From: a virus | Virus record (IMG/VR): IMGVR_UViG_3300028394_000312 | Coordinates: 1-23,468 of that record | Reading direction: 5' to 3' (one strand) | Length of the DNA: 23,468 nucleotides | Shown here: positions 11,550 through 17,442 of the stretch, one piece after another | How the letters are laid out: every line of letters begins with the position of its first letter | Numbering within the stretch: position 1 is the stretch's first letter | Notes under the pieces: generated by a model | Told to the model about the DNA's origin: nothing | What the model saw: only the letters and a program-made list of their open reading frames with translations | Database searches by the model: none | Made by a program: the position numbers and the translations under genes

Positions 11550-13571
11550 TTATTTTTTTGTAACTACATTTGCTTTCCATTCGTGGCGGCAATGATATTC
11601 ATGCTTTGTAGTACCAGGTACTGTATACCATCCACCGCATCTATCCCATACAGAGTAACCCATTATCATTGAAATTTGCTCAATATCCGAACGAGAATAA
11701 AACTTATCTAAATCCATTAACCTTTGACAGAATGGTCTTGATGAATCATAATCTTTGTCCGAAAATCCTGCCCTCCAATCGTAAGAATAACGAATCATTA
11801 TCTCAGTAACTTTCGGACTTTTACCTTGCAATTCCGAAATTGGAGCAGTCAATTCCCTTTCAATCACAATATCTGTTCCGACCTTAGTTTCTTTAACGCT
11901 TAAATAAGCATTATCAACAAGTCCTTTCATTGCTTCATCAACGACCTTATTAGATACGTTTAAAGTGGTTGCAATTACTTCGCTTGTGATACGCTTGTCC
12001 TTACTAATTAAGTCCAAAATATTGGCTTCTAATTGGTTTAAAGCACTACTGTCTGCAAAGTATTCGTGGTCTTTAAAAGATTTAGTTTCAATAAGGTTAA
12101 ATTCGCCTGAATGTGTACCTACCAAATTAAACTCATTAAGCAATCCTTTGTAAGAATCATCCGAGAATTTTTGTACTTCATCATCCGTTAATGGACTATC
12201 ATCTATCCCCAAAAAAGTATTGACATCATTATCATTGAATCCAAATCCGTTTTTAAGCATTAACCCAGCTTGCTCCTTACTTAGTTTTCCGTTACCAAAC
12301 TGACGGACAATTCTCATTACGTTTTGATATTGTCTTCCTGAAAGATTCTTTAATGAATCATTCATTTGTGCTGGAGCTACAACTGGAGCTGCAACAACTG
12401 GAGCTGCAACAACTGGAGCAACCACAACCTGACCATCAGAAGTAGCTTCCCCAACTTGTAAAGGTTCTTTACCCATTAACTCACGAATCTCATTCTGTGT
12501 TAAATTGGCAGCAATAATAGCTTCGCTAAATTCAAACTTCAATGGTTCTACCGGTATAATTTTAAACTCCCCAACATCACCCTTTAAATTCCTTAGCCAA
12601 GTAAATATTTGTTCAAGCTCTTGCTGCCTTTCATTTACATAAGTATTATTAAATATCTCATACGCATCCCTTAATTCATTTCTGCTGAATGCAGATGTTC
12701 CCTGTATGCCGAATAATTGTGGTGATGTAACCTGATGTGCAGCAAATACTTCCTGCTGAATAAGATTGTTTACATTGGTAAAATCTTCCTTTGTAAGCAT
12801 TGTATTACCCAAATCCAAAATCTCAGCCGCATTATCTTTGCTCTTATTGAACATAATCACAACACGCTTCCCTTCAGAACCAGTAAACTTCTTCAGCAAT
12901 CCTTTCTCAACTTCACCTTTATTTTCTTCTCCAATCGGGTCTCCATTGTTTAAATTCACCAACTTAGAACCAACCCAACCTTGCTTTGCGTTTCCTAAAA
13001 TATGTCTTGATACCTCAATGTCACTTTCAATATAATTTAATCCCTGAAAGTAAGACGGATACGGATATACTTCGCTTGATGGATTATATTCCTTAATGTA
13101 TAAAACCTGACTTCCTATTGGATTATTTATGTTGAATGCATCATACTCACGCATTTTTTCTCTCATATCGTTCCAGTCATTCTTAACAAAAAACTTCTGT
13201 AAGTCTTTGCTAACCCTAACCTTATGAAATTCAAGATGATAAACCTCGCTTATTTTCTTTAATCTATTCCAAATAACTTGCAAATAATAACCACGATAAA
13301 GCTCGTCATCCTTAATACACTTCTTCATAACATCATTCCAAGTATCGTTTGAATTAGCTGAACCAGCATCCTCAAATCCCTTTCCGTAAATGTAATTGCA
13401 TTTGCCCTTAATTATAGCACCATGCTTAGGTGACTCGTTATATAAACTTAACAAGTATGTTGGGTAATCATTATGTGCGCCAAACTCTACATAACCCAAT
13501 CTTTTCTTTTCTTCAAATCTCGGTTGCTGAGCTTGGTCAAATTGTAAAACGATGTGTTTGTAGTTATCCAT
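11550..13571 (-). CDS. Portal protein fused to winged-helix and MuF-like C-terminal domains
   Basis: A 673-residue protein. Residues about 25-365 are a phage portal core: YVEFGAHNDYPTYLLSLYN, KGKCNYIYGKGF, FTNVNNLIQQEVFAAHQVTS then PQLFGIQGTSAFSRNEL are typical for the dodecameric DNA gate. A Val/Ala/Pro linker (about 382-401) leads to a helical piece, then a winged helix (about 511-575) and a C-terminal domain (about 593-673) with SRPFCQRL, YSVWDRCGGWYT and HCRHEWKA, similar to the Cys/His/Trp motif of Mu gpF-like minor head proteins. ATG at 13571 overlaps the previous gene by 8 bp (ATGGATAA); an upstream start would be TTG. Separate proteins in other phages, here one chain, so the portal carries its own minor head functions. 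Confidence 0.82.
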   Translation of the reverse strand: MDNYKHIVLQFDQAQQPRFEEKKRLGYVEFGAHNDYPTYLLSLYNESPKHGAIIKGKCNYIYGKGFEDAGSANSNDTWNDVMKKCIKDDELYRGYYLQVIWNRLKKISEVYHLEFHKVRVSKDLQKFFVKNDWNDMREKMREYDAFNINNPIGSQVLYIKEYNPSSEVYPYPSYFQGLNYIESDIEVSRHILGNAKQGWVGSKLVNLNNGDPIGEENKGEVEKGLLKKFTGSEGKRVVIMFNKSKDNAAEILDLGNTMLTKEDFTNVNNLIQQEVFAAHQVTSPQLFGIQGTSAFSRNELRDAYEIFNNTYVNERQQELEQIFTWLRNLKGDVGEFKIIPVEPLKFEFSEAIIAANLTQNEIRELMGKEPLQVGEATSDGQVVVAPVVAAPVVAAPVVAPAQMNDSLKNLSGRQYQNVMRIVRQFGNGKLSKEQAGLMLKNGFGFNDNDVNTFLGIDDSPLTDDEVQKFSDDSYKGLLNEFNLVGTHSGEFNLIETKSFKDHEYFADSSALNQLEANILDLISKDKRITSEVIATTLNVSNKVVDEAMKGLVDNAYLSVKETKVGTDIVIERELTAPISELQGKSPKVTEIMIRYSYDWRAGFSDKDYDSSRPFCQRLMDLDKFYSRSDIEQISMIMGYSVWDRCGGWYTVPGTTKHEYHCRHEWKANVVTKK
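12381..12420. repeat. 15-bp tandem repeat in the portal linker
   Basis: AACTGGAGCTGCAAC occurs at 12381-12395 and 12396-12410 and begins a third time at 12411-12420. It encodes the flexible Val/Ala/Pro linker between the portal core and its C-terminal domains. Slippage could change linker length. Confidence 0.85.
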
Positions 13572-13935
13572 TGTAAGTGATAAATGTGTTTGATTGTTCG
13601 TTGTATGTTGTAGGTTCAAATGTAGTTGTAGGATTTAAATACATGTACCCATCCTCAACTTTATTTAACCCTGATATGTTCGTATTTGATGAGCTTGCTT
13701 GCTCGTAAATATTATAAGTCCAAAATCCAGTCTCCCCATTTGTAAAAAAATCGTTTACAGTCATAACAAAAGTATCATATCTTTTTGTATCGGAAATATT
13801 TGTAGCCACGAATTTAACTATTTCTTGTGTGATGCGATTAGTAAATGTAAACAAAAAATAAGGATTTGTCAACAGACATTTCTCTGTCGCTGTAAAATAA
13901 ATATTCTTTGATTCGCCTTTGCTTAATACTATCAT
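13564..13935 (-). CDS. Hypothetical structural-module protein (123 aa)
   Basis: A 123-residue protein beginning MIVLSKGESKNIYFTATEKC and containing PYFLFTFTNRITQEIVKF, ETGFWTYNIYEQASS and TFEPTTYNEQSNTFITYNG. It is mainly beta strands, without a signal peptide, and has the look of a small virion protein; no family function is known to me. It lies between a terminator at 13947-13976 and the portal gene, which it overlaps by 8 bp, so it is expressed with the portal. Confidence 0.72.
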   Translation of the reverse strand: MIVLSKGESKNIYFTATEKCLLTNPYFLFTFTNRITQEIVKFVATNISDTKRYDTFVMTVNDFFTNGETGFWTYNIYEQASSSNTNISGLNKVEDGYMYLNPTTTFEPTTYNEQSNTFITYNG

Positions 13936-14614: not shown

Positions 14615-15580
14615 TTAGATAGCAGATTTAAACTTAACACACTCTGATGTCAAAGCTACGTCAACTCCTAGCTTAAATTCGCAACGGAATCTTACGTCGT
14701 TGTTATCTTCGCTCCACCATAACTTATAAGCAGTTTCTTCAGTTTCTAAATCAACAGCTATTGCCATGTTTGATACACTGATTGCGTAAGCATCTCCAGT
14801 TGTATTTAATCCGTTAACTGGCTCAATCTTTACGTTTGTACCCGGTAAGATAAAACCTTCAAAGTTTGCATCTTGTGGATTGTAAGAGAATAAGTTCAAA
14901 GCTCTGTAAGCAAGAACCAACAATCTAAACCAATCGTATCCTACAAATATCTTAACATCACCCTTAGCCATTACTTCAGCAGGGATTGCTTTGTAAATAC
15001 CTTCAGTACAAGCAACAACGTTTGAAGCAGTAACAGTTGCGATTGCAGAACCACTTACACCTGTGTAACCTGATACGTTTGCATCTACTGGAGAACCAGC
15101 ATCAATCAACTTACTAAGTCCGTTAAACTTGTTTAAGTTTGCAGTTGCAGAACCTGAATCACCTTGCCATATTGCAGTTTCTAATTGTCCAGCAATACGA
15201 GCATTTTTCTTTGCAAGATAAGCAGCAGCAAATTCAGCACTTCCGAAATCTTCGTAAGTAGAACCAGCTCTTAATGCTTCCATTGTGAAATACGCTTCCA
15301 AATCTTTTGGACAGATTTTTTCTTCAACTTTAATCTTACCAGGAACGATTGTTCTCTGAGTAAAAGTAGTTGTACCTGAAGCATCAAAGCTACAAGATTG
15401 AGCAGCAAATACTGCATCTGTGTCCATCAAAGGAATTGCAGTAGGTCCTTTAACTCCTGTCAAAACGATACCGTTGTCAAGGATTAATTGTTGTGTTTTA
15501 GCTCCAATAACCGCTGATGTTAATAAAGGTTGAACCAGTTGTTTTGTATATGCTGATAAACCTGATAATGATAATGCCAT
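14615..15580 (-). CDS. Major capsid protein (HK97-like)
   Basis: A 321-residue protein, the best candidate for the capsid shell protein. It is rich in Ala/Gly/Thr and has features typical of Bacteroidota phage capsids: an N-terminal region (LSGLSAYTKQLVQPLLTSAV) without signal peptide, an early beta stretch (GKIKVEEKICPKDLEAYFTM), a helical spine (EFAAAYLAKKNARIAGQLET then AIWQGDSG), and C-terminal strands (GYDWFRLLVLAYR; ILPGTNVKIEPVNGL; WWSEDNNDVRFRCEFKLGV). It follows a scaffold-like gene and prohead protease, the usual order for these three genes, and is followed by a strong terminator. HK97 fold is inferred, not proved by a short motif. Confidence 0.82.
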   Translation of the reverse strand: MALSLSGLSAYTKQLVQPLLTSAVIGAKTQQLILDNGIVLTGVKGPTAIPLMDTDAVFAAQSCSFDASGTTTFTQRTIVPGKIKVEEKICPKDLEAYFTMEALRAGSTYEDFGSAEFAAAYLAKKNARIAGQLETAIWQGDSGSATANLNKFNGLSKLIDAGSPVDANVSGYTGVSGSAIATVTASNVVACTEGIYKAIPAEVMAKGDVKIFVGYDWFRLLVLAYRALNLFSYNPQDANFEGFILPGTNVKIEPVNGLNTTGDAYAISVSNMAIAVDLETEETAYKLWWSEDNNDVRFRCEFKLGVDVALTSECVKFKSAI

Positions 15581-15614: not shown

Positions 15615-16151
15615 TTAGTTAAAAAGAACGTCATATGACCTTACTTTTTCTTCTTTAAAGTTTGATTTTGTAATGCTTGCATCAGGTGTTCCTGTTGGTG
15701 TTTCAGCAAGTGTTTGTGTAAGGTTTAAAAGTCCTTCAATTACCTTAGTTGCTTTTGCAAGTTTAGCTTCATATTCTGCAAACTTGGTTTCGTAAGATGC
15801 AAATTTCTCTGAAGTTGATGTTTCAAATGCAGCGAATTTAGCTGACATATCTTCAACCATTGGAGCAGCATTTGTTGATGGAACAATAACAGTAATTGCT
15901 CCGTTGTCTCCAACTGTTAAAACTGTACCATCTTCTATTGTGTAATCTCCTACTGGAGCTGGTACTCCTTGCATAGTTACTATTCCGCCTACTGACATTT
16001 CAGTAACTTCAATTTCAGTACCATCAGCAAGTGTATGCTTCATTGGTTGTACCATTTCAGGAACCATTGGTTCTGTTGGTGGAATCACTTCGTTTTTAAC
16101 TAACTCGTTAAAAGTTTCTCTTAATTTGATTAGTATTTCTTTTGTGTTCAT
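15615..16151 (-). CDS. Scaffold- or decoration-like protein with coiled coil (178 aa)
   Basis: A 178-residue protein. After a short helix (MNTKEILIKLRETFNELVKN) comes a compact beta domain near residues 38-90 (HTLADGTEIEVTEMSVGGIV; GDYTIEDGTVLTVGDNGAIT), then a coiled coil (about 100-145) with repeated Phe/Lys/Glu heptads (KFAAFETSTSEKFASYETKF) and a tail. A coiled coil between protease and capsid genes suits a scaffolding role; the beta domain could be a decoration element. Position immediately before the capsid gene supports scaffold. Two related uses of the beta unit are common in Bacteroidota phages. Confidence 0.65.
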   Translation of the reverse strand: MNTKEILIKLRETFNELVKNEVIPPTEPMVPEMVQPMKHTLADGTEIEVTEMSVGGIVTMQGVPAPVGDYTIEDGTVLTVGDNGAITVIVPSTNAAPMVEDMSAKFAAFETSTSEKFASYETKFAEYEAKLAKATKVIEGLLNLTQTLAETPTGTPDASITKSNFKEEKVRSYDVLFN

Positions 16152-16203: not shown

Positions 16204-17442
16204 CTATTTTATTTCGTTCAATAGCTTCTCTATTCGTTGTAATGCTTCCTTTTCAGCTGTAATAGGTTCTTCATAATCAAACAAACCCTCAACGCTGAAA
16301 CCTTTATACTCGCCACTTTTAATTGATTGCCATACCATATCATTCTCAACGTAGAATGAACCAAACCAACTGCCATCTGCAACATCTTCAAATCCTTTCA
16401 TTGGCAAGATTCCACGTTTCTTATCCACTATAAAAGATTCAAACATAGTAACTCCATCAACCTTTTGATTTTGGTCGTGCATTAAATTAACGTGATTTTG
16501 GAATTTCTTTTTTGAAAACTTGATAGCAATTTGTCTAATAGTGTCCGCAGAAAACTTGACATAATGTTCTCCAAAGGATTCGTTTTGTCTGTATATTAAT
16601 TCATCTGCCAACATCAATGGTCCTGATATTATTCTTTCATCTTCATTAACTACCTGAAAGGACATAGCAAACTTTGAACCGATAGAACCAAGTTCCTTTA
16701 CTACATCAGCGTTATTATCATAATGCTTAGATATTCCAAGCTCTTTAATCTTTTCAACCTTTGCTTTATTACTTCCAGTTGCATAAACTCTTGATTCAGG
16801 TATTCCTAAATCTTTTGCTGTTTGTAGCATTCCTGTCAGCTCATTCCTTGCACTTATGATATAAACAGTCTTTCCTTCAGCAATTAAACGCTTAGCTAAA
16901 TCCTTGCCTCTTGATGTGCTTAAAGTATCATCATAATCAATACTAACTTTATCAGCTGCCATAGTAACTGGACCACCAGCAACCCAAGCATCACAAGTTC
17001 TCATTGATGCACATTTGAAATCAAATGCTTCGCAATACCCTAAATCTCCAGCATCAATAACATCATAAGGATTTAATTCACTTCCTATTCCCTGAGCAAT
17101 ACAATCTTTAATCTTTTGTCCTACATTGAAAAAAGAACAATTCTTACAACGTGATTCTTTTGCTAAATCTTCAGTAGTATTAAATTGCTTTCCTTTTGCT
17201 ATCCAATATTCATCATTCGGTAAGTTTGGATTTAATGGTCCATAATGAGCAACATCAATAGCATTTTGTCTATTCTTTAAATTAGTAGGAATATCCTGAG
17301 TAGCAATAGGACAAGCTTCTTGCTCGTTAAACGCAAGGAAGTCCTTCTTAATGGCTGGTAAATCAACGAGTGCCACGTATGATACTTCGGAATCATCATT
17401 CAAAGATTCGCTTATTTTTAACTCGTATATTGGTAAGTTCAT
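16204..17442 (-). CDS. XkdF-like prohead protease with inserted Cys-rich and HAD-like domains
   Basis: A 412-residue fusion. Residues 1-40 (YVALVDLPAIKKDFLAFNE) and about 255-412 together match XkdF/prohead protease proteins: SGPLMLADELIYR, NLMHDQ with His322, ESFIVDKKRG, GSWFGSFYVENDMVW and KGFSVEGLF with Ser383, the expected catalytic His and Ser. Between them lies an insertion. Residues about 60-158 hold Cys99-x2-Cys102, Cys114, Cys137, Cys144 and Cys150, a metal or iron-sulphur-type site. Residues about 164-250 form a HAD-like hydrolase: DYDDTL (Asp169/Asp171), IISAR (Ser197), Lys226/Lys228 and DNNAD (Asp242/Asp246). The protease presumably trims scaffold and capsid; the role of the insertions is unknown. 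Assignment of the catalytic residues is by motif. Confidence 0.78.
   Translation of the reverse strand: MNLPIYELKISESLNDDSEVSYVALVDLPAIKKDFLAFNEQEACPIATQDIPTNLKNRQNAIDVAHYGPLNPNLPNDEYWIAKGKQFNTTEDLAKESRCKNCSFFNVGQKIKDCIAQGIGSELNPYDVIDAGDLGYCEAFDFKCASMRTCDAWVAGGPVTMAADKVSIDYDDTLSTSRGKDLAKRLIAEGKTVYIISARNELTGMLQTAKDLGIPESRVYATGSNKAKVEKIKELGISKHYDNNADVVKELGSIGSKFAMSFQVVNEDERIISGPLMLADELIYRQNESFGEHYVKFSADTIRQIAIKFSKKKFQNHVNLMHDQNQKVDGVTMFESFIVDKKRGILPMKGFEDVADGSWFGSFYVENDMVWQSIKSGEYKGFSVEGLFDYEEPITAEKEALQRIEKLLNEIK

Follow-up and report, generated by a model that had tools for sequence, protein, structure and literature searches.

Exchangeable domains within the prohead protease of a flavobacterial-type phage: a possible means of loading cargo into the capsid

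The viral contig analyzed here (the window, 23,468 nucleotides or 23.5 kb) encodes on its minus strand a prohead protease in which a cysteine-rich domain and a HAD phosphatase domain lie between a short N-terminal segment and the catalytic domain. What are these two domains doing within a maturation protease? An initial annotation had linked both to capsid maturation, one as a redox- or metal-sensing element and the other as a phosphatase, and had suggested that they are perhaps cut free as the capsid matures.

Architecture of the protein and its setting among head genes

The assignment as an XkdF-type prohead protease, already made in the initial annotation, is borne out by the Pfam family Peptidase_S78_2 (PF14550), which matches residues 265-386 with an E-value of 3.4e-13 (50.2 bits against a cut-off of 24), and by the conservation of the catalytic residues His322, kept in 77 of 78 aligned relatives, and Ser383, kept in all 78. 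That the protein cleaves scaffold and capsid is predicted from its membership of the S78_2 (XkdF) family.

Residues 1-40 are separated from the protease by a genuine insert, as had been supposed. In the protein of Nonlabens (Persicivirga) phage P12024L (AFM54721; locus L084), as well as in L099, L107 and L111, the N-terminal segment is joined directly to the protease, and its arrangement in P12024L therefore defines residues 42-260 as inserted; residues 60-250 are not part of the usual family fold. The segment leads nearly every complete relative, even when up to ~700 residues separate it from the protease. P12024L shares with the present phage this segment, the S78_2 domain and the protease-scaffold-capsid gene order, but it has no inserted domains and its scaffold is fused into the protease protein.

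Table 1. Positions of the protease gene, its domains and neighboring head genes in the window
Feature	Position	Strand	Remarks
Whole gene, fusion of N-terminal segment, CYS, HAD and S78_2 protease	16204..17442	minus	412 residues; ATG start
N-terminal segment	17323..17442	minus	residues 1-40
Seven-cysteine domain	16969..17319	minus	residues 42-158; C44, C99, C102, C114, C137, C144, C150; HiPIP-like predicted fold
Minimal HAD phosphatase domain	16657..16962	minus	residues 161-262; D169, D171, T173, S197, K228, D242
S78_2 (XkdF) prohead protease domain	16213..16665	minus	residues 260-410; His322 at 16477-16479, Ser383 at 16294-16296
Probable scaffold	15615..16151	minus	weak match (E 0.0005) to the C-terminal part of phrog_24921
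Probable major capsid protein	14615..15580	minus	in Nonlabens phage P12024L, the homologous gene comes next after that for the protease-scaffold protein
Portal with C-terminal MuF-like module	11550..13619	minus	

Because the protease gene is followed by a scaffold-like gene and then by a homologue of the gene next to the P12024L protease-scaffold gene, the region can be recognized as the block of head genes in a tailed phage of flavobacterial type (Table 1). The probable scaffold contains three [KE]FA-type motifs, namely AKFA, EKFA and TKFA. Elsewhere in the window, a small protein encoded at 1711-2157 resembles, by eye, the C-terminal DNA-binding domain of DnaA.

The two inserted domains

Six cysteines had been noted in the initial annotation, at positions 99, 102, 114, 137, 144 and 150. 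These positions are correct, but the count is not, as Cys44 of the same domain had been missed. All seven cysteines are invariant in an alignment of 52 diverse phage homologues, and the median dN/dS of the domain among homologues is 0.068, a value that signifies strong purifying selection. No match to the domain was found in Pfam or PHROGs, and no PHROG extends over residues 41-161. The seven-cysteine domain is an undescribed and very conserved domain that recurs on unrelated phage head proteins. In the divergent solo proteins, five of the cysteines are kept and C44 and C114 are gone, fully so in four of five proteins, with L083 retaining a cysteine at the first site. These solo proteins (L083 and L089-L092), from Manatee Spring phages, were deposited as 'high potential iron-sulfur protein'.

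Modeled alone, the domain attains a pLDDT of 92.7. When this model was searched against the PDB, 11 of the 12 best matches were high-potential iron-sulfur proteins (HiPIPs), the exception being rank 10, although each match is weak by itself (best Foldseek E-value 0.6). Structural alignment with the HiPIP 1hrq by VIA-align gave a Z-score of 5.4 over 80 of 85 residues, with an rmsd of 3.6. At the level of sequence the two families remain unconnected: the HiPIP Pfam model PF01355 finds no match in the 412-residue protein and reaches at best 14.1 bits against a cut-off of 22, in a solo relative, and no homology is claimed from the profiles, since hhalign aligned only nine columns around a CxNCxxF motif (score 20.7, compared with 19.2 for the best of 50 column permutations). 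Given that the single matches are weak and the sequence profiles are not joined, the domain is described here as HiPIP-like and not as a HiPIP, from which it also differs in being ~40 residues longer, in having three more invariant cysteines and in being internal to a phage protein. Searching PDB sequences with the Cys profile yielded only splicing-factor matches, which were chance-like and were discarded.

One reading of the cysteines gives a CxxC ... C-x12-C pattern: the spacings C99-x2-C102 and C137-x12-C150 fit the HiPIP arrangement CxxC-xn-C-x12..14-C, whereas the gap between C102 and C137 is ~34 residues as opposed to 8-14. The structural alignment ends by pairing model residue 116 with residue 84 of the HiPIP chain, and by the ligand numbering of the Chromatium HiPIP, both ends lie seven residues past the last cysteine. 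Together with the C137-C150 spacing, the alignment ends suggest C99, C102, C137 and C150 as candidate cluster ligands, and the cofactor of this HiPIP-like domain is probably [4Fe-4S]. It is a real but lesser possibility that the domain instead coordinates zinc or is stabilized by disulfides, as a CxxC with further cysteines is a zinc pattern too, C44 and C114 are lost together in the divergent solo forms, and the sequence profiles do not join those of HiPIPs. Against zinc or disulfides, the fold search returned HiPIPs and no zinc ribbon, and the C137-x12-C150 spacing is fixed where HiPIPs have 12-14 residues. Under these results the domain has the appearance of a metal or Fe-S domain, and even zinc or disulfides would be compatible with the cargo role considered below.

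The motifs of the HAD domain lie where the initial annotation had placed them (DYDDTL at 169-174, IISAR at 195-199 and DNNAD at 242-246). Among homologues, motifs I-IV are conserved as D169 (83/83), D171 (83/83), T173 (81/83), Ser or Thr at 197 (85/85), K228 (86/86) and D242 (86/86), so that the phosphatase active site appears intact as judged from conservation; the median dN/dS of 0.125 again reflects strong purifying selection. In a fold search with the whole model, in which the HAD domain took up the list of matches, residues 161-261 matched the 3'-phosphatase of T4 Pnkp with a Z-score of 11.2 (97 residues, rmsd 2.2); phosphoserine phosphatase also scored 11.2 and a universal stress protein tied. 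The domain shares with T4 polynucleotide kinase the HAD fold and the DxDxT, Ser/Thr, Lys and Asp motifs; it differs in being only ~100 residues long, in having no kinase, and in a sequence similarity that falls under the Pfam cut-offs. Indeed, no Pfam HAD model exceeded its cut-off over the full protein (Hydrolase_3, 17.2 against 20.9 bits) or for the domain alone, and when PDB sequences were searched with the HAD profile, a designed protein and a phosphoserine phosphatase-like protein matched weakly. Weak ADH_zinc_N matches, also under cut-off, were ignored. The HAD clade is protease-linked in 85 of 86 cases, in a sample of the 80 best matches per scan that is biased to near relatives, the sole exception being L046, whose sequence starts within the C-terminus of a protease.

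Exchange of modules and the carriers of the seven-cysteine domain

Related proteases were compared using profiles for five modules (ALPHA, CYS, GWG, HAD and MuF-like) along with those for the protease and its N-terminal segment. Among 85 such proteases, more than 20 module orders were found around the S78_2 domain, and on a tree of the 85 protease domains, a quick tree with many open forks, the minimum number of gains or losses is 10 for CYS, 19 for GWG and 6 for HAD. The sister loci L003/L217, L002/L020 and L005/L197, with similar flanking DNA on both sides, differ by a single in-frame cassette, CYS. In L029/L033 and L223/L228, which are clean occupied and empty pairs with similar flanks, the difference is GWG, at one and the same codon, and ALPHA-GWG and HAD distinguish L194/L054 and L068/L066, respectively, again between similar flanking DNA. 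The MuF-like module, which resides on the portal in the present phage, sits inside the protease in relatives such as L057 and L066, indicating that modules move between head proteins. The anatomy, conservation and exchange of the modules are well supported, and recent segment shuffling between phage proteins is known as a general process (Nat Commun 2023, PMC10684548), in a text on domain mosaicism that makes no mention of proteases. The GWG and ALPHA modules (for example in L050:1219-2541) are ~100 and ~45 residues long, each with conserved cysteine and no counterpart in Pfam, and both are met repeatedly on proteases and portals.

Such frequent and clean turnover at a single site might be expected if the cassettes were neutral or selfish passengers in a tolerant position. 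This explanation is very improbable, as the cassettes have dN/dS values of 0.07-0.125 and conserved active sites; GWG, with a median of 0.066, is likewise under purifying selection, and the median for the protease domain among homologues is 0.063.

The same comparisons bear on the proposal that the Cys domain senses redox state or metal and, together with the phosphatase, gates the protease. The position of the insert, with the N-terminal segment on one side and the catalytic domain on the other, would suit such a regulator, as would the conserved cysteines and the HiPIP-like fold. Yet the sister phages L217, L020 and L197 lack the Cys domain and P12024L lacks both it and the HAD domain, such that the modules come and go among otherwise very similar proteases. 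Moreover, the module order is permuted, and the Cys domain occurs equally on other proteins or in a gene of its own. Fusions join it to lambda-type portals (L106 and L156), other portals (L165 and L100) and HK97-type proteases (L102 and L139), and protease-capsid fusions also carry it: in L085:849-3926 and L171:1240-4131, a single ORF unites the Cys domain and GWG with a prohead protease of HK97 type and the major capsid protein. Most of its fusion partners face the head interior. The coupling to capsid maturation is accordingly not sustained, and a regulatory role is improbable: presence and absence in similar proteases, permuted order and varied carriers fit exchangeable cargo better, and what the Cys fusions share is attachment to head proteins, mostly interior-facing ones.

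Solo Cys genes lie between terminase and portal in L161 and adjoin the protease in L099, L107 and L111. Some are found outside the head cluster, as in L150, beside a deoxyribonucleotidase gene, and a role in the head lumen is thus not general. In two proteins of ~1,270-1,300 residues, the Cys domain is accompanied by an ADP-ribosyltransferase (L115:3986-7903) or a polynucleotide-kinase-like region (L121:3986-7783). In the Actinomycetia phage DSL-LC01 (L082), a Cys-domain gene is located just upstream of the capsid maturation protease in the same head cluster, and at its C-terminus that protease (L082:8219-10774) has a second, shorter stretch of the type CxxC...C...GYC. The product annotated 'DNA methyltransferase/prohead protease' in Rhizobium phage RHph_TM16, being only 210 residues long, gives no evidence of a methyltransferase fusion.

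A possible cargo role and a candidate cleavage motif

Prohead proteases assemble inside the prohead, and cassettes within such a protease would therefore be carried with it into the head lumen. We consider the chances about even that the prohead protease is a carrier whose cassettes are packaged and delivered as capsid-interior cargo, an assembly-only role ranking next. Under the cargo reading, the site between the N-terminal segment and the catalytic domain would accept small independent domains in frame by recombination, here the HiPIP-like domain, probably with [4Fe-4S], and the minimal HAD phosphatase. The cassettes would probably be cut free at their linkers while the protease is processing the scaffold and itself, and some may stay with the DNA as internal proteins able to enter the host. 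We infer that the phosphatase may act in early infection, stripping 3'- or 5'-phosphates off nucleotides or nucleic acid, and that the Fe-S domain may serve in DNA binding or as a redox protein.

A precedent for the cargo reading is provided by P1 DarA, a protein that the prohead protease trims and that is ejected along with the DNA (PMC12810830). P1 DarA and Hdf and the T4 internal proteins share with the cassettes a location in the head interior, predicted in the present case, but they are separate substrates and not parts of the protease. Small domains recombined onto head proteins have also been described among polyvalent proteins and MuF- and portal-fused effectors, for which packaging and injection were proposed (Iyer et al. 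2017, PMC5512222). Judged from its sequence, the 412-residue protease is similarly multi-domain and fused to or beside head genes; the difference is that the carrier is the maturation protease. The text of PMC5512222, when searched, contained none of the terms XkdF, phosphatase, cysteine, iron-sulfur and Fe-S, and 'prohead protease' occurs in a reference title only. A search of open-access papers found none describing the seven-cysteine domain or the protease fusion. Injected effectors being already known on MuF and portal proteins, a maturation protease serving as an exchange site would amount to a natural cargo system, for which the empty and filled proteases are ready controls, and the seven-cysteine domain may represent an iron-sulfur protein inside virions.

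Phe-Ala is ~10 times commoner in the windows at inter-module junctions than elsewhere in these proteases (1.88% versus 0.18%). The motif [KEQHR]FA was observed 119 times against 34 expected in the proteases and 101 times against 14 in small downstream ORFs, mostly scaffolds, an enrichment inflated by the relatedness of the sequences and by the location of the scaffold copies in a coiled-coil-like heptad stretch; other ORFs show no enrichment (92 observed, 103 expected). The motif is a lead, as a candidate cleavage site at module linkers and in the scaffold, and it adds an indirect hint in favor of release during maturation, which, as originally suggested, is plausible. Another reading is that linker Phe-Ala reflects recombination at short TTTGCA repeats.

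The occurrence of the FA-type motif in both the scaffold and the protease linkers is also what would be expected if the modules were scaffold-like or DNA-organizing lumen domains, used during prohead building and then degraded or expelled with the scaffold, and the recognizable fusion partners are indeed head-building proteins. This assembly role is possible but rather unlikely, as an invariant catalytic HAD site and seven invariant cysteines exceed the needs of a filler, and a given module is absent from closely similar phages. Returning to cargo, a fuller proposal can be made only tentatively: that the maturation protease of flavobacterial-type phages is a self-cleaving cargo-loading platform, from which interchangeable capsid-interior enzymes, including an undescribed iron-sulfur-type domain, would be freed at [KEQHR]FA-type sites and delivered with the DNA. 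Should FA-type cleavage prove true, the motif would constitute a short address tag for protein release inside capsids; propeptides bearing multiple motif sites are known in the case of SPN3US gp245 (PMC10052503).
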